A stretch of DNA of 64,000 nucleotides from Rhodovastum atsumiense (GTDB lineage: Bacteria; Pseudomonadota; Alphaproteobacteria; Acetobacterales; Acetobacteraceae). Both the position numbers and the translations under genes were made by a program. The stretch lies in contig NZ_OW485601.1 of the NCBI RefSeq assembly GCF_937425535.1, positions 4,819,501-4,883,500 of the forward strand, given 5' to 3'. Position 1 is the stretch's first letter. Each line of letters begins with the position of its first letter. Positions 34,468 through 59,712 of this stretch are shown here, in pieces. The notes beneath the pieces are model-generated. The model was not told where the DNA came from. It searched no databases and worked only from the letters and a program-made list of their open reading frames with translations.

Positions 34468-36234
34468 TCATGCCGCCAGGGCGCCCGGCGCCCCGTCTTC
34501 CGTTCCGGCGCGGACCGGCAGCATCTCTTCCAGGCGGATCCGCGCCGCCGGAAGAAAGGCCGACCAGTCGTCCACGATGAGACAGAGGCTCTCGGGGGAC
34601 TGGCTCCGCTGCACGTCCTCGGCTTTCCAGCCTGCCGCCTTCTTGGCAAAGCTGTAGACGAGCGCACGGGCGATCCGCCGAGTCACTGCCCAGCGCGCTG
34701 CCTCGGTTGCGGAGGCACGCACCTCCTCGGCTTCGGCTTGGGGGCCGAATTCCGCTTCCAGCTGCTCTGCCAGCGCGAGCACAGCAGAGTACTGAAAGTT
34801 AATGAAGATCTGATGCGACTGCGGGAAGTACTGTGCCACGCGCCCAGTCAACCCACGTTCGGCAATCATCTCGTCCTGGTCCAATCCGATGATTTCCGGC
34901 GGACGCTCATAGATACGGCGGGGTGGGGAAGGGGGGCGCTCGGGACGTTGGGACTCTGCCGTCTTCGGCTCCGTTGTGGTGGCCTTGCCGCTCCCTTCCA
35001 CGCTGCGGCCGGGGGCTGTTGACGGTCGCGGAATGAAGCTTGCCTCAACGCCCAGTTCTGCCAGCAGGTCCCGCAATTCGTCCTGTACCTCGTTGGCGAA
35101 TTTGGCCTGATCAGGGCCATAGGAACGGATGATGCACAGCAGCCATTCCGGCAGATGGGTGCGGACCAGTGCAGAAAAATGCGCCAGAAACACCTGCTGC
35201 TGATCGCCGCCGCGGAAGCGCAGGAACTGTCGGTACGCCTCGGGCCGCACAACATAATCGTCCGGTAATTCCACGAAGACCTTGCAGTGCTTCGCCCCGA
35301 AGCTGAAGCCGAAAGACGGGCCTTCGAGAACCCAGCGCTCTCTGGCCCGCACGTCATAGATTTCGCCTTTATAGACGATGCAGCCGAGTCCTTCCGTCGT
35401 GGCTGAAACGTCACCTTGTCCAGGGTGGGCCTCGCCTGCAGTCGGATCGTAGCAATAGTGGATCGTGATGCCGCTTGCCGTGCGCACCGACTCGGTCTGT
35501 TTGAACTGTTCCCAGTGGGCGAAAAAAGTCTCGAACCGCCTTGGCGTGCTGCCGCCCGCCACCTCAGGGCGTAGATGCAGCGTCAGGCCAGCGGGCAGGC
35601 GGAAAAAGCGCAGCGCCAGGGTCTCGGCGAGCCATCCCGCTTCGTAGCGAGGACTCCCATCGTATGGATCGACCACCGTGTTCTGCCGGGCATGGTTGCC
35701 CCCGAGCACGACCTCGGTCCAGTCGCGGGAGAGATCATAATCCCCCTCCGCTTGGCATATATCCGTAACGTTGAGGACTTCCAACGGGTTTCCCGCGGCA
35801 TCCGTGCCGAGGCAAAGTCGCCCGTACACGCCGCTCCGCTCACACAGGACCACCTCGCTGACGCGTCCGGCCTTGCAGGAGCGATACCGCAGCATATGCC
35901 GGTTGGACGGCAGGGATGCGACCTTCGCACCCATGCCGAAATTACCGTCGAGGCTGTTTTCTTTGTGCAATGAAGAGGCGAGGTCGCAGATCCTGTGCAA
36001 CTCCATCGCCGACAGGCCCGGGCCGGTGTTCCGGATGCAGAGCTTGGGCGTTCCATCGATGATGCGTGCGGTGATCTCGACCAACCGTTCGCCCTCGCCA
36101 CGCATCGCCGCTTCGATTGCGTTCACAACCAATTCCCGAAGCATCATCGTCTTCGGGCAGCGTTCGATCATGCTGGAGACAAGAAATGCCTCATTCGCAA
36201 CGCGCAACGCTGTAACCGGCGAACGCTCCGACAT
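34468..36234 (-). CDS. stand-alone GHKL (Hsp90-like) ATPase, unknown function
   Basis: 588 residues from ATG 36234, with GAGGGG about 6 bp upstream. Residues 28-110 form a GHKL ATP-binding fold: N-box LRELVVNAIEAA (E34, N38), a G1-like box IRNTGPGLS (69-73) and G2 box GNFGMGAK (100-104). G1 normally has Asp where Asn69 stands. The middle (about 150-380) is unassigned; a low-complexity linker (RPERPPSPPRR) precedes a C-terminal helical part. Not a histidine kinase: no HisKA or sensor. Resembles MORC/MutL-like lone ATPases. Probably transcribed with the TPR gene. Confidence 0.75.
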   Translation of the reverse strand: MSERSPVTALRVANEAFLVSSMIERCPKTMMLRELVVNAIEAAMRGEGERLVEITARIIDGTPKLCIRNTGPGLSAMELHRICDLASSLHKENSLDGNFGMGAKVASLPSNRHMLRYRSCKAGRVSEVVLCERSGVYGRLCLGTDAAGNPLEVLNVTDICQAEGDYDLSRDWTEVVLGGNHARQNTVVDPYDGSPRYEAGWLAETLALRFFRLPAGLTLHLRPEVAGGSTPRRFETFFAHWEQFKQTESVRTASGITIHYCYDPTAGEAHPGQGDVSATTEGLGCIVYKGEIYDVRARERWVLEGPSFGFSFGAKHCKVFVELPDDYVVRPEAYRQFLRFRGGDQQQVFLAHFSALVRTHLPEWLLCIIRSYGPDQAKFANEVQDELRDLLAELGVEASFIPRPSTAPGRSVEGSGKATTTEPKTAESQRPERPPSPPRRIYERPPEIIGLDQDEMIAERGLTGRVAQYFPQSHQIFINFQYSAVLALAEQLEAEFGPQAEAEEVRASATEAARWAVTRRIARALVYSFAKKAAGWKAEDVQRSQSPESLCLIVDDWSAFLPAARIRLEEMLPVRAGTEDGAPGALAA

Positions 36235-36320
36235 CAGCACCCCTCAGGTAATTGACCTCTCCTATCATAACCTGAGGGTGAAATACCATCCTGGTGTAGT
36301 GACGAAAACGAGCAAGCCCC

Positions 36321-41754: not shown

Positions 41755-42846
41755 GGGATCACCGCGGTCGCCGAAGCGACCGGGGTTGCACGTAGCACGA
41801 TCAATCGGGGGCTGGCGGACCTGCGCTCGGGTACGCAACCTGGCAGCCAGCGCGTCCGCCGGGGGAGGCAGCAAGCCAGCGACCGAGACGCAACCTGGGC
41901 TTTTGGCGGCACTGAGGAGTTGGTACAATCGTCCATCCGTGGTGACCCGTAAGCGGCACTGCGCTGGGCCAGCATAGAGCCAGCGCCATCTCTCGGCCGC
42001 GTTCGCCACACGTGGGTTCGTGGCCGGACAGAAGCTGGTCGGGCGGTTGTAGGCACGCTGGGCTTCAGCCTGCAGGCCAACCGCAAGACCCGCGAGGGCA
42101 CGCAGCATCCCGACCGCAACGCTCAGTTCGAACACATCAACGCCGCCGTGGCCGTCTTCCAGGCGGCCGGACAACCGGCGATCTCGGTTGACACGAAGAA
42201 GAAGGAGCTTGTCGGAGATTTCAGGAACGGCGGATGTGAACTGCGGCCAAAGGGACAACCCGAAGCGGTTCGTGTCCACGATTTCGCCATTCCCGAACTC
42301 GGCAAAGCCGTGCCCTACGGCGTCTACGACATCGCCGCCAATGCCGGGTGGGTCAGCGTCGGCATCGATCACGACACCGCCGTCTTCGCTGTCGAGGCCA
42401 TCCGCCGCTGGTGGCACGACCTCGGCACCACCCGCTATCCCGCCGCGACGAAGCTGCTGATCACCGCCGACTGCGGCGGCAGCAACGGCACACGGGTGCG
42501 GCTGTGGAAGCACGAGTTGCAAGCCCTGGCCGACGAAATCGGCATCGCCATTACCGTCTGCCACCTGCCGCCGGGCACCAGCAAGTGGAACCGAATCGAG
42601 CACCGCCTGTTCGCCTTCATCACCCAGAACTGGCGCGCGCCGTTGGTCAGCTATCAGGTGGTCGTGCAGCTGATCGCCAGCACCATCACCAGAACCGGCC
42701 TGACCGTCGCCTGTCGGCTCGACACCAACAGCTACGAGAAGGACGTCAAGGTTTCCGACACCGAGATGGCCAGCCTCGATATCCAAACCGCCAACTTCCA
42801 CGGCGAATGGAACTACACCATCAGACCAAGGTCGCCCTATAACTGA
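41755..42846 (+). pseudogene. ISAzo13-family transposase, 5' part decayed
   Basis: From 42148 one clean frame carries the DDE half: ISVDTKKKELVGDFRNGGCE, VHDFAIPELGKAVPYGVYDI, SVGIDHDTAVFAVEAIRRWW, LLITADCGGSNGTRVRLWKH, CHLPPGTSKWNRIEHRLFAF, ending GEWNYTIRP. Upstream (TAVAEATGVARSTINRGLAD at 41757, LGFSLQANRKTREGTQHPD at 42060) the same family continues in changing frames, so the 5' half is broken. The extreme N-terminus is missing. Confidence 0.82.
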
Positions 42847-42893: not shown

Positions 42894-43175
42894 TCAGGGG
42901 GCGCCTTTCTTGATCGCCCGGGCGGCGCCCCCTCGGGGTCGCACGGCCTCGTCCGCCGGTCGCCCGTGACCATGGTGTTCCAGCAAATCGTTGATGGCGC
43001 GGGCGAGCAGGGCCTGGACGGTGGTGTCCTGCGCGGCGGCCAGCATCCGAAGGGCGCGTTTGACCGCTGGATCGAAATGCGCGCCGACCCACACCGCGCC
43101 GATCCGGGACGGCTGACGCCGCGATCCGGCGTCAGCCTCGGCGGGTGTGTGGGCGGGTTCCAGGGACTTCGTCAT
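42894..43175 (-). CDS. ribbon-helix-helix DNA-binding protein
   Basis: 93 residues from ATG 43175, with AAGGAG just upstream. The central segment RIGAVWVGAHFDPAVKRALR then MLAAAQDTTVQALLARAIND is a ribbon-helix-helix of the antitoxin-like type found with plasmid genes; both tails are flexible and basic. The upstream frame to 43304 would run through the operator region and is unlikely. Transcribed divergently from the GIY-YIG gene across about 100 bp that contain two palindromes, so it is the obvious candidate regulator of that operon. No toxin gene adjoins it. Confidence 0.78.
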   Translation of the reverse strand: MTKSLEPAHTPAEADAGSRRQPSRIGAVWVGAHFDPAVKRALRMLAAAQDTTVQALLARAINDLLEHHGHGRPADEAVRPRGGAARAIKKGAP

Positions 43176-43232
43176 CGACTCCTTATCAGGTGGCGCACCA
43201 GGGGCTGCACGACCGATATCCACGAGGTGCAT

Positions 43233-43268
43233 TTCACAATCAAGTGTGAATCCTAAAAGTCGACTTTT
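43233..43268. promoter_or_regulatory. two palindromic operator candidates between divergent genes
   Basis: TTCACA-(6 bp)-TGTGAA occupies 43233-43250 and the perfect 14-bp palindrome AAAAGTCGACTTTT occupies 43255-43268, ending 5 bp before the ATG at 43274. The patch is AT-rich in GC-rich surroundings. Ribbon-helix-helix dimers bind short inverted repeats, so these could be the sites of the 42894 product; the second would overlap the ribosome-binding region if 43274 is the true start. Confidence 0.6.
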
Positions 43269-43273
43269 CATAC

Positions 43274-44566
43274 ATGCATCGATCGAGCACAACTCAGGCG
43301 CCAATCACTCTGCTGGATGATCGCGTGAAAACCCCCACTTCTTACCAAGTTCCTCTTCGGTCAACGATTTCCACTCTGCCATCGGCACGGCCGATCCTCA
43401 TCTACGAGATCCGTCGCACCGCCGACGGCAAGCGCTACGTCGGCCTCACACAGCGTCCGCTGCCGGTCCGCTTCACCGCCCATTGCGCCGACGCCATGCG
43501 CGACGGCGGCCGCCGCGGGCGGCACGGCACGATCACCGAGGCGATCCGCGAGGTGCTCCGGGCAGGCCAGAAGCCGCGTGAGCGCTTCATCACCAAGGTG
43601 CTCGAGGTCTGCGCCGACCTGACGCAGGCTCGTCGGGCCGAGAAGGCCTGGATCGCCCGTCTCGGCACTGCCGCCCCGACCGGCTTCAACCTGATGCCTG
43701 GCGGCGCCTCGGTTGGCGGCCCCGGCAATGCCAAGGAAATCTCGTTCTCCCATCCGGTGCGCGGCGAACTCCGCTTCCCAGCGATTTCCGCCGCGCTCGC
43801 CGACATCAACGCCGAGCGCCTGCGCAGCGGTTTTCGGCCGCTTGCGGAAGCCACGGTTTGCGCCCGCCTGGAACTCGGTTGGCCGACAGACGAGGCGTTC
43901 GAACTGGTCGATCATCGCGATGCGCGGACACGTCGACCGCCCTTTCTGTGGCATGGGCGGCGCTACGACAGCCTGCGCGACCTCGCCAGGGTGGAAGGAC
44001 TGCCGATTGCGACCGCGCGTTCGCGGCTGCACCGGGCTCGTCAGGCCGGTCATGGCGAAAGCCACGATGCCGGAACCGATCGGCGCTGCCACGCGACGCA
44101 GCAGCGATGCCGGGCGGCACGACTCGCTTTGCCGGATCCGCGTTCCTCGTCCGCGCCTCCGGTGGATGCGGCGACCTTCGCGCGCCTGACTGGCATACCG
44201 CGCGCCACGGTGCTGACGCGCTGGCACCGCCTGCGACGTCGGAACACCGACGTCGCTGAGCTCGACCCTACGATGGTGCTGGCGGCGCTGCAGACCCCGG
44301 TGGACCGCCGAGTGCATCTTACCCTCGTTCTGCCTGACGGCCGACGCGTCGCAGGCGGCGTCCGTGAGGTGATCCGGCAGGTGCTGGACGACCCAGGGCT
44401 GAAAGGGGGGCGCATCGAGCGACTGGGTGAATCGGCGATCCGCGCCCGCCTGCGCCGCCTGCCGGGCTGGCCGCAGGGTCCGTTCACGGAGGATGCCATA
44501 TCCTGGGCGTTCGGGTTCACACCGGGCCTCGCCGGCGCGGTGCATCCTCAGGCGAGGGGTGTCTGA
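43274..44566 (+). CDS. GIY-YIG nuclease-like protein
   Basis: 430 residues. A GIY-YIG-type domain covers about 40-140: PILIYEIRRTADGKRYVGLT (the two Tyr motifs as IYE and YVG), PVRFTAHCADA with the conserved Arg, then RRAEKAWIARLGTAAPTGFN with the Glu and Asn positions. The C-terminal 290 residues contain segments resembling DNA-reading helices of homing-type nucleases (YDSLRDLARVEGLPIATARS, TFARLTGIPRATVLTRWHRL). No good ribosome binding site precedes 43274; a GTG at 43325 is a possible start. It ends 2 bp before the AAA protease gene, a likely operon. Cutting activity and target are unproven. Confidence 0.75.
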   Translation: MHRSSTTQAPITLLDDRVKTPTSYQVPLRSTISTLPSARPILIYEIRRTADGKRYVGLTQRPLPVRFTAHCADAMRDGGRRGRHGTITEAIREVLRAGQKPRERFITKVLEVCADLTQARRAEKAWIARLGTAAPTGFNLMPGGASVGGPGNAKEISFSHPVRGELRFPAISAALADINAERLRSGFRPLAEATVCARLELGWPTDEAFELVDHRDARTRRPPFLWHGRRYDSLRDLARVEGLPIATARSRLHRARQAGHGESHDAGTDRRCHATQQRCRAARLALPDPRSSSAPPVDAATFARLTGIPRATVLTRWHRLRRRNTDVAELDPTMVLAALQTPVDRRVHLTLVLPDGRRVAGGVREVIRQVLDDPGLKGGRIERLGESAIRARLRRLPGWPQGPFTEDAISWAFGFTPGLAGAVHPQARGV

Positions 44567-44568
44567 CC

Positions 44569-46800
44569 ATGCACGGTCATTCCGATCAGGACGGACGAGC
44601 GACCGACCAGCAGGTCGTTGGTGAACTGTCCTGCGATCTCCGGCGAATCACCCACCAGCGTCGCTGGTGCCGTCGGATCCGTAGCCAATTGGTAATGCGG
44701 CTCCCATGGCCGTTCTCATTGCGGTGGCGTGCTCATCCGGGCGCACTGACCGCGGATGCAGACGATGTGCCCAACCTGGCTCCGACTGCCTTGTCCGGTT
44801 CGGCCGGCACGGCGCCTGTAGACAATGTCGACGCTCCGGATCCAGACGCGGACCACGGACACATCCGAAAGCAACCGTCCGATCCGGCGCGCATCGCCGT
44901 GCGGGTGATGCTGACTCGCGCACTGGAGGCCGCCGGCATCAGCGCCGGCGCCGCCGGGCGTGACGGTGTCGTTTGCCTTGTCCTGCTCCCCGGCTCGGTC
45001 TGGACGATGATCGCGCAGGATGAATGGGAGGATCTGGCCTGCACAGATAACCGCCCTGCTGATGGCTTGCACGAGATCTACGGGACTCGTGCCATTTGGG
45101 TGGCAAGCGAAGCGCCTCGTGAGTATGAACGGCGCCAGGCCGCCGAGAAGTTCGCCACCAGCATCGCGAAGGGGCGGCACTGCGCCGCATTCACCGCCGA
45201 TCCCGCCTGGCTGCCGAATGATCTGGTCCAGGCCGCCGACATCCGGCTGACGGTGCCAAGGCTTTGTCCGGACGACGTTTCGGCGATCGTAACCGAGCTG
45301 TGCGACGAGACGCCCACGGAACGTCTCTCCGAGGAGCAGACCGTCCTGCTCACGCCGCGGCTGCTACGTCTGGCGCGACGTCCCGGCCAAGCGGCTGATG
45401 CCTATGTTCGTAAGCTGGTCGACCTGATGGACCGCGATCAGGCCGCCGCAGTCCGTGCCGCGATCGTTCCGACCTCTCCGCGGAACACGCCGGATCTCAC
45501 CCGTCTTCACGGCATGGACGAGGCGGTCCGCTGGGGGGTGGGCCTGGCCAGTGACTTGCGGCTGGTTGCCGAAGGCAAGATGACTTCGACCGAAGTGGAT
45601 CGCGGTTGCCTGTTGTCCGGTCCACCCGGCGTCGGCAAGACCTTATTCGCACGCGCCCTGGCCCGGAGCTGCGACGTCCCGCTGGTATCCGGATCGTATT
45701 CCGAGTGGCACGGCACGGGCAACGCCCATCAGGGCGATCTTCTCAAGGCGATGCGACGGACGTTCTCGCGGGCGCGGGAGTCCGCACCATGCATCCTCTT
45801 CCTTGATGAGCTCGACAGTTTTCCAAATCGCTCGACCGTTTCATACCACTACGCTGAATGGGAGATCCAGGTGGTGAACGGGTTGTTGGCGGAGATTGAC
45901 GGCGTAGAGGGGCGGGAAGGTGTGGTCCTCATTGCCGCCTGCAATTACCCGGACAAGCTCGATCCGGCACTGATCCGCAGTGGACGGCTCGACCGCCACA
46001 TTCGTTTGTCCCTACCCGATCGGACGGCCCTGGCGGCGATCCTGCGTGAGCACCTCGGAGCCGACCTCGCGGGCGTGGATCTCTCCGCAGCCGCGCTGGC
46101 CGCAACCGGGGGTACGGGCGCCGACTGCGAGAAATGGGTGCGTGGTGCGCGCCGCCGCGCCAGGACGGCTGCCAGGGCCATGATGCTGGACGATCTGCTT
46201 GCCGAGATCAGTGGTATGGAGAGCAGGGCCCCCAAAGACCTCTGGATCGCCGCCGTACATGAAGCTGGCCATGCCGTAGCAATCAGCGTTCTCCGGCCCG
46301 GGACGCTCAAGGGGGTGTCCTTGCGGGCGGGCAATGGAAAAGGCGGCTTCACCGATGCAGAAATGGCGCAGTCCACGCATCTGTGCGAGGCCGACCTGAA
46401 ACGCCAGTTGATGATCTTGCTCGCTGGTCGTGCGGCTGAAGAAGAGTTGCTGGGCTTCGCGTCGTCCGGTGCGGGCGGTGAACACGAAAGCGACCTCGCC
46501 CGGGCCACGTGGCTGGCGGTGATCGCGGACACGGCGCTCGGTCTCACGGAGGCCGGCTTGGTGTGGTACGGTATGCCAGATGCCAGCACCATTCCGGTGG
46601 TCCTTGCGAGGAATGCCAGGCTCGCCGAGCGCGTCCGCGCCCGACTTGACGATGCTTATGCGGCAGCCCGGGATCTGCTCATCCGGCCGCGGACAGAAGC
46701 TGTGCGGGCGCTCGCCACCATGCTCGTGGAGCGCCAACTGCTTGATGGGCCCGACGCGGAGGCGGTCATCCGACGACATGCCAATGGCGAAAGCCCATAA
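44569..46800 (+). CDS. soluble FtsH-like AAA+/M41 metalloprotease
   Basis: 743 residues. A Walker A GPPGVGKT (351-358), Walker B ILFLDELDS (about 409-417) and the second region of homology IRSGRLDRHI (about 469) define the AAA+ domain. The M41 zinc protease shows AVHEAGHAV (HEAGH 564-568) and third ligand D642 in ESDLARAT. FtsH has two N-terminal membrane helices; this protein has none, but an unassigned domain of about 300 residues (VCLVLLPGSVWTMIAQDEWE, IWVASEAPREYERRQAAEKF). So it should be a cytosolic ATP-dependent protease. The start follows the nuclease stop by 2 bp. All key residues are present. Confidence 0.88.
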   Translation: MHGHSDQDGRATDQQVVGELSCDLRRITHQRRWCRRIRSQLVMRLPWPFSLRWRAHPGALTADADDVPNLAPTALSGSAGTAPVDNVDAPDPDADHGHIRKQPSDPARIAVRVMLTRALEAAGISAGAAGRDGVVCLVLLPGSVWTMIAQDEWEDLACTDNRPADGLHEIYGTRAIWVASEAPREYERRQAAEKFATSIAKGRHCAAFTADPAWLPNDLVQAADIRLTVPRLCPDDVSAIVTELCDETPTERLSEEQTVLLTPRLLRLARRPGQAADAYVRKLVDLMDRDQAAAVRAAIVPTSPRNTPDLTRLHGMDEAVRWGVGLASDLRLVAEGKMTSTEVDRGCLLSGPPGVGKTLFARALARSCDVPLVSGSYSEWHGTGNAHQGDLLKAMRRTFSRARESAPCILFLDELDSFPNRSTVSYHYAEWEIQVVNGLLAEIDGVEGREGVVLIAACNYPDKLDPALIRSGRLDRHIRLSLPDRTALAAILREHLGADLAGVDLSAAALAATGGTGADCEKWVRGARRRARTAARAMMLDDLLAEISGMESRAPKDLWIAAVHEAGHAVAISVLRPGTLKGVSLRAGNGKGGFTDAEMAQSTHLCEADLKRQLMILLAGRAAEEELLGFASSGAGGEHESDLARATWLAVIADTALGLTEAGLVWYGMPDASTIPVVLARNARLAERVRARLDDAYAAARDLLIRPRTEAVRALATMLVERQLLDGPDAEAVIRRHANGESP

Positions 46801-46812
46801 TCACTGTACATA

Positions 46813-47927
46813 TTGATCCGGCCTGGGCGGTCTTGGATCAGGCGGCGTAGCGGAATGTGGGGTGGCGGAAGTAGCTTCGGATGCGGGCTGGCGGCCTGGA
46901 GAGCCTGCGCATGTGGCCGATGAGGTTGCGTTTCAGCGCCTCCCGGCTGCGGGCCGGTGCCTTGCGCGGGATGCTCTGCTTGAGGTCGGCGTTCAGTCCC
47001 TCGTCCGGATTGAGTTCTGGGCTATAGGCGGGCAGGTGGAACACCTCGATCTGGGAACGCCGCCCGGCCAGCCAGTCCTGCACAGCTCGGCCACGGTGGA
47101 CTGGCAGACGGTCGAGGATGAGGAACACCTTGCTCCTGGCATCGCGGATCAGGCGCTCGAGGAAGGTGATCAGCAGTGTAGCGGTGATACCCCGGTCGAG
47201 CACCATCCAACGCAGTTCGCCCTTGTTGGTCACCGCCGAGATCAGGCCGACATTGGCCTGCTTGTGGCAGGGGCGCACCACGGGCGTCTTGCCGCGCGGG
47301 GCATAGCCGCGGCCGCGCACGTCGTCGGAGCGCAGGCCGGTCTCGTCGCCCCAGAAGATCGCGCCTTTCTGTCGCCGCGCCTTCGTCTGGATGGCTGGGT
47401 ATTCCTTCTCCAGCCAGTGCCGGACCTGCCCGGGCCGCTGCTCATAGGCGCGCCGCAGCGGCTTCTGTGCGGTGAAGTTCCAGCGCGCCAGGTAGGTGCT
47501 CATCGTGCGTACCGCCAGACGCACGCCGCAGCACTGCTCGATCAGGGCCGCCACGGCCGCCCGGCTCCACAGCGCAAACGGCAGGCCATAGGCGTCCGGC
47601 GTGCCGCGGCGGATCAGCTTGCGGATCTCCGCTTCCTGTGTCGCCGCGAGAAACCGTCCGGTCCCCGGCGCAGGGCCGCGCGGGCCGGTCTGCAACCCCG
47701 CTATCCCACGCGCTCGGAAGCGCTTGCAGATGTCGAACACGCCGTTCTTGGTCAGCCCAACCTGCGCGGCAATTTCAGCGTAGGTCAAGCCACGTTCCCG
47801 TAGCCCGATCACCTGCCGACGACGCTCCTCTTGAGCCGCAGGCGCCAGGCTCCGCATGTCCAGGTGCTTCATCTGCCAGACCTGGGCGCAGCCCTACCTC
47901 ATTCCAAGACAGCCCAGGCCGGATCAA
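46813..47927 (-). mobile_element. IS630-family element, intact
   Basis: Ends TTGATCCGGCCTGGGCGGTC and, inverted, TTGATCCGGCCTGGGCTGTC, flanked by TA at 46811-46812 and 47928-47929, the target duplicated by IS630/Tc1 elements. It landed 10 bp after the stop of the AAA protease gene without damaging it. Confidence 0.92.
46838..47872 (-). CDS. IS630-family transposase
   Basis: 344 residues. An N-terminal helix-turn-helix (GLTYAEIAAQVGLTKNGVFD) is followed by the DDE domain: IFWGDETGLRSD (D), KVFLILDRLPVHRG (D), YSPELNPDEGLNADLKQ (E). Many IS630 proteins have HxxxH near the second Asp, as here. Full length, no frameshift. Flanked by matching terminal repeats, so potentially active. Confidence 0.95.
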   Translation of the reverse strand: MKHLDMRSLAPAAQEERRRQVIGLRERGLTYAEIAAQVGLTKNGVFDICKRFRARGIAGLQTGPRGPAPGTGRFLAATQEAEIRKLIRRGTPDAYGLPFALWSRAAVAALIEQCCGVRLAVRTMSTYLARWNFTAQKPLRRAYEQRPGQVRHWLEKEYPAIQTKARRQKGAIFWGDETGLRSDDVRGRGYAPRGKTPVVRPCHKQANVGLISAVTNKGELRWMVLDRGITATLLITFLERLIRDARSKVFLILDRLPVHRGRAVQDWLAGRRSQIEVFHLPAYSPELNPDEGLNADLKQSIPRKAPARSREALKRNLIGHMRRLSRPPARIRSYFRHPTFRYAA

Positions 47928-47929
47928 TA

Positions 47930-55595: not shown

Positions 55596-55635
55596 TACTT
55601 GAGATGATAAGGCACGTCGCATGAGGAGTTTGAAT

Positions 55636-56202
55636 ATGGAATCAAATCAAAAGTCTGACTGGCATGACTGGCATGACTGGCATGACCGGCATGACTGGCA
55701 AATTCTGTGGGAACCGTCTGCAAGAAAAGTGGCCGACTCCCCGGCAGATGCGTTCGCTCGCGCTATCCTTGATTATGCGCAATCTCGCCCGAACGACGAA
55801 TTCGCAACCAAATTTGCTGCTTCGGTCGCTGCGGCAGGATGGATCAATGTCAGCAACGAGTTGAGCCGGGCCGCTGGCGACGTGGCGGATCACCTGCCGC
55901 TTGATCAGGTGTCGGCGTTGAGCCTGCCTTTTCCTGTCACCTGGGTCGAAGGCAATGTCCCGGATATGGTAGGGGTGCGCTTCGGCTTCCTTTATGAGCG
56001 TGATAAGCGTGATAGCAGAGTGCTCTCAGTCCGCTGTGCAAAACACGACAAAAAGGATGAAGTCGTTTTCCTCCGTCATGAGATTATCGCTTCTGCAGAG
56101 CGCCTTTCTATTCTGCCGCCAAATTTTTTCCGTGCAAACGCAGCAGAGAAGACAGCGGCCCTCGTGCTCCGGCTGATCACGCTTATCTGCGGAGAAAGCT
56201 GA
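55636..56202 (+). CDS. hypothetical protein with DWH microsatellite
   Basis: 188 residues from ATG 55636, which has AGGAG 7 bp upstream; an ATG at 55621 is possible but has no such site. The N-terminus contains DWHDWHDWHDRHDW encoded by four to five tandem 9-bp units (CTGGCATGA), which can change number without breaking frame. The rest (FARAILDYAQSRPNDEFATK, VSALSLPFPVTWVEGNVPDM, RFGFLYERDKRDS) matches no family I know. Probably cytosolic. A GC hairpin (GCGGTCGCCAC/GTGGCCGC) follows at 56210 without a T-run. Confidence 0.65.
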   Translation: MESNQKSDWHDWHDWHDRHDWQILWEPSARKVADSPADAFARAILDYAQSRPNDEFATKFAASVAAAGWINVSNELSRAAGDVADHLPLDQVSALSLPFPVTWVEGNVPDMVGVRFGFLYERDKRDSRVLSVRCAKHDKKDEVVFLRHEIIASAERLSILPPNFFRANAAEKTAALVLRLITLICGES

Positions 56203-57123: not shown

Positions 57124-59712
57124 ATGTCATCCCGCGCTGACCGCCGCAAGAAGGCCAGGACCGAAAACGAAGACGCCCTCGCCCACGTTGTCATTGATCC
57201 CGACACCGGACGCACGCACTTCGATCCGCGTGCCGACGGCGCCGATTGGGCCGAGGCGTTCGACGAGGTCTACGCCAGGCACCGCGGCGACTGGAAGCTG
57301 GATAAACCCGAGGTGCAGGACGAGAAGGCGGCCAAGCTCGACCGCCGCGCCCAGGCATACTGCGAAGCTCTGAGCCGCCGTTCTGCCGAAGCTTTCGCCC
57401 GCCTCAGCGCCGATTACGCCCGCGACGTTGGGCATCTCGCCAAGATCAGGGAACTCCGGAATATCCGTGCCGAAGACCCCGGGCTCTATGCGTATCTCGA
57501 AACGCGAGCCGAGAAAGGCGACCGCGGCGCCAGAGACATCATCCGGCACTCCCGTCTCGTGGCCGAGAATTGGGGCAAGAAGGCTGCCGCCGAACGCGCC
57601 ATCACCAATGCTCTGAACAAGGCACGGATCGAGGTCGGATATGTCCACGACGGCGGCGAATTCGGCAACGGATACGGGCGGGAACCATTTACTTACCAGG
57701 GGTTCGTGTCTGACGAACACCCTATCCTGCGGCTGTTTAACTCAATCCTGCCGCGTGTCAAAAAGTTCCGCGGCGGCAGAACAAAAGAGGATTACCAGTC
57801 GGTCCGGAGCAAATTGCTCGGCGCCGACCTCCCTTACGCCTCCGTTAACCGGGACATGCGGTCCTTGCTCCGGGTTGACCTCGATCGCACCTACGATTCC
57901 GCTGAGGCGCTTCTGGGTCTCATCAATTCGTGCGCCATCTTGGCGCCGAACCTGATCGTCGGTTACGTCGACCGCCAGGGGCGATTCGTGCATCCACAAG
58001 CATACTGGCTGCTGGCCGACGCGGCCTGCTGGATGTCGAAGGGTGAAGCCCGTTTCCGCTTCAAGTTCGACGCGGTCAAGCGCGGTCTCAACGCCGCTCT
58101 CCTGCCGATCGGCGCCGATCCTTGCGCGATTTGGAACGACACTTGGATCAAGAACGCCCTTTCGCCGCTCTGGTCCTGCACCGTCGGTGCCCAGGTGCCA
58201 TATTCGCTGGAGGTCCTGGGCGAGAACCTGAACCTCATCGGCTTCGGCAAGAACAAGGAAAACCTCGCCCTCCTGAAGGCGGCAACGCCTGACCTTCGCG
58301 GCGCCGGCCCGGTTCCGGTCGAACATCCCGACCCTGAGGTCCAGGCGGGCAGCCAGCCGGCGTTCCGCATCCTCCGCGCCGTCGCCCTGGACAGTGTCGC
58401 CTCCTATGCCGACGGCAATGGCGGCACTCACGGCGTCGGACGCGAGGCGTTCGAGGAATTCATGATCGCCCAAGCCCGCCGCATCAACCCGCATGGCAGC
58501 ATCACGCGCGTCGAAAGCCAGGGCGCCAGTGTCGCCAAATACGTATGGAAGGAACACGCCGGCAGGAAGCAGAAGGCGGCGGACGCCGCTGATGCGCGCG
58601 AGATCCGCAACGCCGCCCGGAGGAAGCACGCCGACGCCACGGGCGTCCACCGCGCCCGGAAATCCGCCGGGCAAACCTCGGCGACCAAGCGCCGTACCGG
58701 GTCTGTAAGGCTGATTTCCGCCGCCGCCATTGGCCTCATTGGCGATGGCGACAGGCCGACGAAAGCGGCTGTCACCCGCGCACTGGACGGGAAGGTCGTG
58801 TTGGAGACGGTGAAGCGGAACTGGTCCGACGCCATGACGTCCCTCGTGCCGCTCTGCGACATCCTCGACGCCGCGCATGCGCACGTCGCCACGGGCGGGA
58901 AACTGCCGGGGAAGGAACTGCTTGTCCCAGTCATCGAGCGGCTGGACGAGCTCAAGGAACTGCTGGAGACCGCACAGTCGGAAAGCCAGCGCGAGGCGGC
59001 GGGAAAAGAGGTCGTCGCGGCGGAGGATGAACTCGTGGCGGCGAAAAAGATGATTGCCACGGCAAAGAAGGCGGTCACAAACCGTTTTGCGGACGGCTCA
59101 CGCGAGATGCTTATGCCCCCCATCACACCCCAGGCCCGCGAACGTGCTACCCTGGAACGCGGCGCTGCCGTCGTCGCCGAAGCCAGGGACCTGGTTGCGC
59201 GCGGTAAGATCAAGGCTTTTCACCTCGTCGAGGGGTCCGCGAACGACTACGAGGACGGGCTCGCCGCCGGCTACGTGACGACCCGCGCCGCCTGGATGGT
59301 GGTCGGCTATTGGGATGTCGTTGTGCACGCCATCACGAACGGCTGGAATCCGAAGATGCGTCCTGCCGCCTGCCGCCTGCCGCCGCGTGAACGGGATTCC
59401 TCCGTCACTGCCCCCATCCGTTGGATCGCCGTCGATGACACCGTCGAAGCCGACGGCGCTACCGCCATGCCGATAGCCGGCTGCCCTCCGGAAGCTGCCC
59501 TCCCGGAGGCGCCGGAGGATGTGTCCGCCGCCCCAGACAAGGAAAACGCCTCCGCTGTCTCTGACCCCGAAATGGCCTGCCACCACGTCCGGCAGCTGGT
59601 GGTGGAGGAGCTGGAGCCCGTTCACGTCTCCAAACATCTCGGGGAGACGCTGGATTTGGATGTGGTCGAGTTCTGGCTCGCCTGGCAACCGCCGCCACCT
59701 GCCGTCATCTGA
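57124..59712 (+). CDS. plasmid-type replication protein (Replicase/primase-like)
   Basis: 862 residues. Residues about 240-360 resemble the Replicase family of plasmid Rep proteins with a primase-like fold: RSLLRVDLDRTYDSAEALLG, APNLIVGYVDRQGRFVHPQA, YWLLADAACW, ALLPIGADPCAIWNDTWIKN and ALSPLWS. The N-terminus is charged and helical (DRRKKARTENEDALAHVVID); the centre carries a basic linker (RRKHADATGVHRARKSAGQT), then a long coiled coil (ELLETAQSESQREAAGKEVV). GAGGG precedes the ATG. This is the main evidence for a plasmid replicon. The assignment rests on motif resemblance; no par genes are seen nearby. Confidence 0.6.
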   Translation: MSSRADRRKKARTENEDALAHVVIDPDTGRTHFDPRADGADWAEAFDEVYARHRGDWKLDKPEVQDEKAAKLDRRAQAYCEALSRRSAEAFARLSADYARDVGHLAKIRELRNIRAEDPGLYAYLETRAEKGDRGARDIIRHSRLVAENWGKKAAAERAITNALNKARIEVGYVHDGGEFGNGYGREPFTYQGFVSDEHPILRLFNSILPRVKKFRGGRTKEDYQSVRSKLLGADLPYASVNRDMRSLLRVDLDRTYDSAEALLGLINSCAILAPNLIVGYVDRQGRFVHPQAYWLLADAACWMSKGEARFRFKFDAVKRGLNAALLPIGADPCAIWNDTWIKNALSPLWSCTVGAQVPYSLEVLGENLNLIGFGKNKENLALLKAATPDLRGAGPVPVEHPDPEVQAGSQPAFRILRAVALDSVASYADGNGGTHGVGREAFEEFMIAQARRINPHGSITRVESQGASVAKYVWKEHAGRKQKAADAADAREIRNAARRKHADATGVHRARKSAGQTSATKRRTGSVRLISAAAIGLIGDGDRPTKAAVTRALDGKVVLETVKRNWSDAMTSLVPLCDILDAAHAHVATGGKLPGKELLVPVIERLDELKELLETAQSESQREAAGKEVVAAEDELVAAKKMIATAKKAVTNRFADGSREMLMPPITPQARERATLERGAAVVAEARDLVARGKIKAFHLVEGSANDYEDGLAAGYVTTRAAWMVVGYWDVVVHAITNGWNPKMRPAACRLPPRERDSSVTAPIRWIAVDDTVEADGATAMPIAGCPPEAALPEAPEDVSAAPDKENASAVSDPEMACHHVRQLVVEELEPVHVSKHLGETLDLDVVEFWLAWQPPPPAVI

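Follow-up and report, generated by a model that had tools for sequence, protein, structure and literature searches.

FtsH is textbook membrane machinery, and IetAS consists of an ATPase and a separate serine protease. For GIY-YIG homing endonucleases, a survey places most bacterial enzymes of the orthodox class in a mobile setting and gives them as not found in Alphaproteobacteria as of 2006 (Dunin-Horkawicz et al., 2006; PMC1564403). We compared with these systems a locus of the alphaproteobacterium Rhodovastum atsumiense, in a 64,000-nucleotide stretch (hereafter, the window; contig NZ_OW485601.1, positions 4,819,501 to 4,883,500) that is part of contig C1 (6.48 Mb) in a genome of 7.4 Mb. 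The locus is a segment of three real genes, encoding a ribbon-helix-helix (RHH) protein, a GIY-YIG nuclease-like protein and a soluble FtsH-like protease. It is probably the relic of a plasmid, phage or phage-plasmid in a chromosomal island rich in insertion sequences (ISs), carrying an intact protease that would act by the mechanism set out below. The observations behind this reading are the domain order of the protease, its conserved active sites, the mobile setting and DUF6634 linkage of its relatives, and the fact that no GIY-YIG pairing was seen elsewhere in the searched sets. The main features, in window coordinates, are as follows.

44569..46800, + strand: soluble FtsH-like protease, 743 amino acids (aa), with a degenerate AAA+ domain, an AAA+ ATPase and an M41 zinc peptidase (Pfam, alignment, hydropathy, tree)
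44791..45528, + strand: predicted N-terminal degenerate AAA+-like domain of the protease, the stretch that was folded alone
43274..44566, + strand: GIY-YIG nuclease-like protein, 430 aa, homing-endonuclease-like (PF01541, 5.4e-5, residues 42-130)
42894..43178, - strand: RHH gene, 94 aa, of a kind found after parA on plasmids (PF20605, Antitox_RHH, 7.9e-22, scored on a 136-aa reading)

The protease matches Pfam AAA at residues 347-481 (9e-33) and Peptidase_M41 at residues 560-732 (1.1e-11). A sequence-only reading of the window had held that it keeps the AAA+ and M41 residues, lacks the membrane helices of FtsH and has gained an N-terminal domain, and on all three points our analysis agrees. 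Walker A (351-358), Glu414, HExxH (564-568) and Asp642, whose roles we take to be those known from FtsH, are invariant in 25 of 25 aligned members of the protease family. A membrane helix is predicted to be absent, as the highest 19-residue hydropathy ahead of Walker A is 1.46, compared with 2.02-2.83 in four FtsH-like matches in the same genome (L004-L007), with the caveat that over all protease loci the two ranges touch, the soluble member L058 reaching 2.16. The additional N-terminal domain is present; its fold is predicted with confidence, and the model resembles a degenerate AAA+ domain. The order pseudo-AAA+, AAA+ and M41 is therefore probable. A fusion of this N-terminal AAA+-like domain with a calcineurin-like phosphoesterase occurs at locus L051 (446-2515), and the domain would therefore be a reusable module. 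In two IMG/VR contigs (L111:4737-9945 and L112:3505-6302) the AAA+ and M41 halves are encoded by two overlapping genes; at L111, genes for a Lon-like AAA protein and for DUF6634 precede them upstream, and a fragment of a phosphoesterase gene follows downstream.

In the tree, one branch at 100/100 divides 45 soluble from 12 FtsH rows, and the window protease groups with L048 and L049 (98/84), then with L051 (98/92) and then with L050 (99/99). It scores 861 bits over positions 39-683 of the 688 positions of the family profile, which includes the window sequence. Judged by its sequence, it is an intact member of an unnamed soluble FtsH-like family that is distinct from true FtsH. Six soluble AAA-M41 proteins from other taxonomic families of the class (L186-L191), about 900 aa long, have a longer N-terminus, and the three of the six that were placed in the tree (L186, L187 and L191) lie nearest to true FtsH in a midpoint-rooted drawing.

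Members of the protease family were found in 26 of 299 genomes of the taxonomic family (32 copies, E-values up to 1e-60) and in three large plasmid records (up to 1e-50), and more soluble members were located in IMG/VR contigs. At most three candidates were scored per genome in the protease search of the taxonomic family, and at most five and four in the corresponding GIY-YIG searches of family and class; relatives may therefore have been overlooked, as in genome G293 below. Two further copies lie in the window genome, at C1:4338997 (43%) and C5:91561 (41%). Contig C5 is phage-plasmid-like: beside the protease paralogue stand terminase- and portal-like genes (recognized by eye), a parA-type gene and an RHH paralogue, and its L046 stretch of 13,001 bases is identical to an IMG/VR virus contig. 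Rep3 replication initiators account for five of 51 upstream neighbours scanned (one confirmed singly, L093) and thus indicate plasmid-like prophages. The occurrence of relatives on plasmids and virus contigs, together with IS flanks at the window locus, upholds the mobile-element setting proposed earlier. Neither the GIY-YIG gene nor the protease was found in the six other genomes of the genus in our sample at the thresholds used.

DUF6634 occurs in 17 of the 299 genomes of the taxonomic family, and 12 of these, in seven genera, belong to the 26 protease-bearing genomes (p=5.6e-11, kinship of genomes ignored). Twelve of its 19 copies there lie within 1 kb of the protease on the same strand; downstream of a 13th copy, in G293, lie fragments of the protease in two frames, overlooked by the protease search. 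We chose 63 protease loci, taken from genomes, plasmids and virus contigs. A same-strand DUF6634 gene lies within about 1.6 kb in 19 of them (18 upstream and one downstream); seven have a same-strand phosphoesterase (own profile), four an Xre/MbcA-type gene and one, the window, the GIY-YIG gene. These loci include near-identical sets (L053/L054/L010, L182/L183 and L059/L201) as well as split, truncated or shortened members (L107, L111, L112, L113, L185 and L197). The remaining 44 are without a close same-strand DUF6634, which argues against a fixed DUF6634-protease system. Pfam matches among upstream neighbours were to DUF6634 (13/51), Metallophos_2 (4/51) and GIY-YIG (1/51, the window), and among downstream neighbours to Metallophos and Xre_MbcA_ParS_C (4/39 each). 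The scans covered 51 of 78 upstream and 39 of 69 downstream genes; those omitted by hand were mostly third neighbours and small doubtful open reading frames (ORFs), and one upstream gene of L092 fell outside. Same-strand neighbours were listed from 55 loci up to the first opposite-strand ORF, a rule that misses the DUF6634 of L184 and L195, and genes in relatives were called by a simple GC-bias script rather than a trained gene finder.

Of the four nearest relatives of the window protease, L048, L049 and L050 have DUF6634 next to the protease gene. At L104 three genes overlap successively, first DUF6634, then a phosphoesterase and then the protease, and the phosphoesterase matches the PADLOC model PDC-S10, in which PDC presumably stands for ‘phage defence candidate’. 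In the window, a profile made from the relatives finds no DUF6634 among the ORFs, nor does PF20339 find it in the window genome, where each of the 22 candidates was scored; in 17 relatives that search detects it. As far as gene neighbourhoods indicate, DUF6634 is the recurrent partner of the protease family, common but not universal. In two genomes that belong to a single genus, a second conserved gene family, without a Pfam match, lies close to both DUF6634 and the protease (L048:5104-5811 and L050:4808-5713).

The gene arrangement that had suggested a nuclease-protease system is confirmed by ORFs and Pfam: the GIY-YIG and protease ORFs are separated by 2 bp, with GAGGGG ending 9 nt ahead of the protease ATG, and they diverge from the small RHH gene, whose start we moved to ATG 43178. 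The proposed system itself did not survive the comparison, since this GIY-YIG gene lies beside the protease at the window alone among the 63 loci and DUF6634 recurs instead. None of 298 other genomes of the taxonomic family matches the window GIY-YIG protein, partial matches, two of them in frames interrupted by a stop, occur in three of 384 further genomes from the class, and none of the 62 other protease loci has the pair. Within the reach of these searches, this absence of a conserved pairing is an outcome that the sequence-only reading had itself named as counting against the system. To the extent of these data, the adjacency looks like an accident of this locus, and a conserved two-gene module of the toxin-antitoxin type was not found in the sampled genomes and loci. 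The protease family may have a role in defence or addiction.

The GIY-YIG protein itself lies just above the Pfam cut-off (23.9 against 22.6 bits), and the motif residues LIY from 42, Y55, R66, E123 and N139 are all present, the Tyr, Arg, Glu and Asn having, we assume, their usual functional roles. The approximately 280 residues after the domain give weak helix-turn-helix (HTH)-like signals (Sigma70_r4_2 at 0.013, below its cut-off; phrog_3377 at 0.55) and zero matches to NUMOD. The group I intron endonuclease model TIGR01453 matches at 5.1e-4, under its cut-off, and the homing endonuclease family phrog_314 at 6.2e-6. Relatives in four plasmid and four phage records match mainly the GIY-YIG domain, none at 80% coverage, and no full-length relative was found in the genome, plasmid and phage sets searched. 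The best plasmid relative, from Sinorhizobium meliloti, lies near repABC, with no protease of the soluble FtsH-like kind annotated within 6 kb. Because of its domain order and best matches, we label the protein homing-endonuclease-like, which is what these features suggest. At L057 (3993-4874), a gene that looks GIY-YIG-like by eye, with no Pfam match and missed by the window GIY-YIG profile, is convergent with a soluble protease.

For the RHH gene, the most probable start is ATG 43178, giving 94 aa; the alternative 136-aa reading from a TTG runs into the GIY-YIG start. Homologues match in 74 plasmid records, none over 80% of the RHH length, and in all six of these records that were opened the homologue lies directly downstream of an annotated parA (four) or a parA-sized AAA family ATPase (two). 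The paralogue on contig C5 likewise stands after a parA-type gene. By family and gene order, the RHH gene is of the plasmid-partition type; at the window, no parA lies beside it, the upstream gene being the divergent GIY-YIG ORF. The 95-bp gap between the two genes (43179-43273) contains two possible operators.

43255..43268, no strand: perfect 14-bp palindrome AAAAGTCGACTTTT, possible operator, 5 bp ahead of the GIY-YIG start codon
43233..43250, no strand: inverted repeat TTCACA-N6-TGTGAA, possible operator, weak

The palindrome sequence occurs at a single place in the whole genome; 102 of 20,000 shuffles of the gap yield a 14-bp palindrome, and the window has seven in all. Looser inverted repeats are frequent across the window, at about 0.5 per 95 bp. 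The RHH protein may still bind these palindromes, and a role as regulator of the GIY-YIG/protease pair is putative.

Transposase-like genes, identified by eye except for two identified by Pfam, crowd the surrounding stretch, and ISs stand on both sides of the three genes.

42148..42846, + strand: ISAzo13-type transposase remnant, left flank, N-terminal part missing (PF07592, 3.1e-102, profile positions 84-308 of 308)
46811..47929, - strand: IS630-like element with 27-bp terminal inverted repeats (repeats, and DDE_3 at 8.7e-34 in 46838-47872)

The remnant ends 47 bp from the RHH stop codon, and the IS630-like element starts 10 bp after the protease stop codon; the original neighbours of the segment may have been removed. 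Elsewhere in the window, two ORFs (57124-59712, 862 aa; 55621-56202, 193 aa) have zero Pfam matches at E-values up to 0.01, and a 590-aa protein (34468-36240) resembles HSP90/histidine-kinase-like ATPase domains with scores below the Pfam cut-offs.

In our reading, a mobile element would have assembled the soluble protease with a gene resembling those of homing endonucleases and with a partition gene that is now an orphan. From its architecture, we infer that the protease would form a cytosolic, presumably hexameric ring in which a protein substrate is unfolded and threaded by the AAA+ domain and then cut at the M41 zinc site. In place of the membrane anchor, the degenerate AAA+ domain at the N-terminus would hold the ring and offer a docking platform for substrate or adaptor. 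In many relatives the co-encoded DUF6634 protein is probably an adaptor or regulator; at the window locus it appears to have been lost, and the unrelated GIY-YIG gene, probably co-transcribed with the protease, occupies the slot directly upstream. The likeliest use would be regulated proteolysis that serves the mobile element, either in phage or superinfection control or in the turnover of an antitoxin-like partner.

Other readings assign the genes differently. In a recently formed toxin-control or defence module, the GIY-YIG protein would be a DNA-cutting toxin or anti-invader nuclease, the protease would control or activate it and the RHH protein would repress both via the palindromes. The 2-bp spacing with its ribosome-binding-like GAGGGG, the divergent RHH gene with the 14-bp palindrome in the gap and the expected active-site residues in both proteins are in keeping with this, but we regard it as highly improbable: the searched sets contain no other instance of the pairing, DUF6634 is what the nearest relatives of the protease use, the RHH protein is of the parA-linked type and a compact replicon gives tight spacing by chance too. 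Little credence also attaches to the larger proposal that a double-ring protease of phages and plasmids (degenerate AAA+/AAA+/M41), a DUF6634 adaptor and metallophosphoesterase or Xre/MbcA-type parts form a mobile system, so far undescribed, for defence or lysogeny control, in which the window adaptor was swapped for a GIY-YIG nuclease working with the protease.

It is possible, if doubtful, that DUF6634 and the protease, with or without the phosphoesterase, constitute an undescribed anti-phage or superinfection-exclusion system whose window copy has decayed or been rearranged. Gene pairs or triples in the predicted virus contigs L092, L095, L100 and L104, the PDC-S10 match of the L104 phosphoesterase (2.4e-10) and the patchy distribution of the protease (26/299) point that way, whereas in PADLOC the protease matches the AAA region of other systems, chiefly IetA and TRIP13, DUF6634 is without any PADLOC match and patchy mobile genes may instead serve replication or lysogeny. 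That three unrelated genes are simply stranded among IS elements as decaying, functionless cargo is unlikely: all three frames are uninterrupted and the catalytic residues have been kept, although ISs flank both sides, neither parA nor DUF6634 is at the locus and the six other genomes of the genus have neither gene.

The object of interest is the protease family and its DUF6634 link rather than a nuclease-protease operon. Relatives of FtsH on mobile DNA would have a second, apparently dead AAA+ domain at the place of the membrane anchor, and DUF6634, a small protein so far unstudied, gains a first testable role as adaptor or regulator of an AAA+ protease. The question raised is why phages and plasmids bring their own FtsH-like machine.

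Set against described systems, the RHH protein shares family and small size with ParA-RHH plasmid partition cassettes but has neither parA nor a replication gene beside it. The GIY-YIG protein resembles orthodox-class homing endonucleases, as described in PMC1564403, in having the GIY-YIG domain first, a possible DNA-binding C-terminal part and a mobile setting; it differs in lacking a NUMOD match and in its weak HTH signals. The AAA+ region of the protease matches IetA models (PADLOC IetA; NCBIfam NF042959) at 3.7e-22, but the match is confined to that region, the window protease is one polypeptide with an M41 zinc peptidase, and no separate serine protease partner is among its immediate neighbours (the GIY-YIG gene and the IS630-like transposase). 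With FtsH (TIGR01241; Pfam AAA and Peptidase_M41), the protease shares AAA+ followed by M41, Walker motifs, HExxH and an Asp taken as the third zinc ligand. Unlike FtsH, it is predicted to have a degenerate AAA+-like domain in place of N-terminal membrane helices, it scores 178 bits against the TIGR01241 equivalog, far under the cut-off of 600, and it belongs to a separate branch of the tree.
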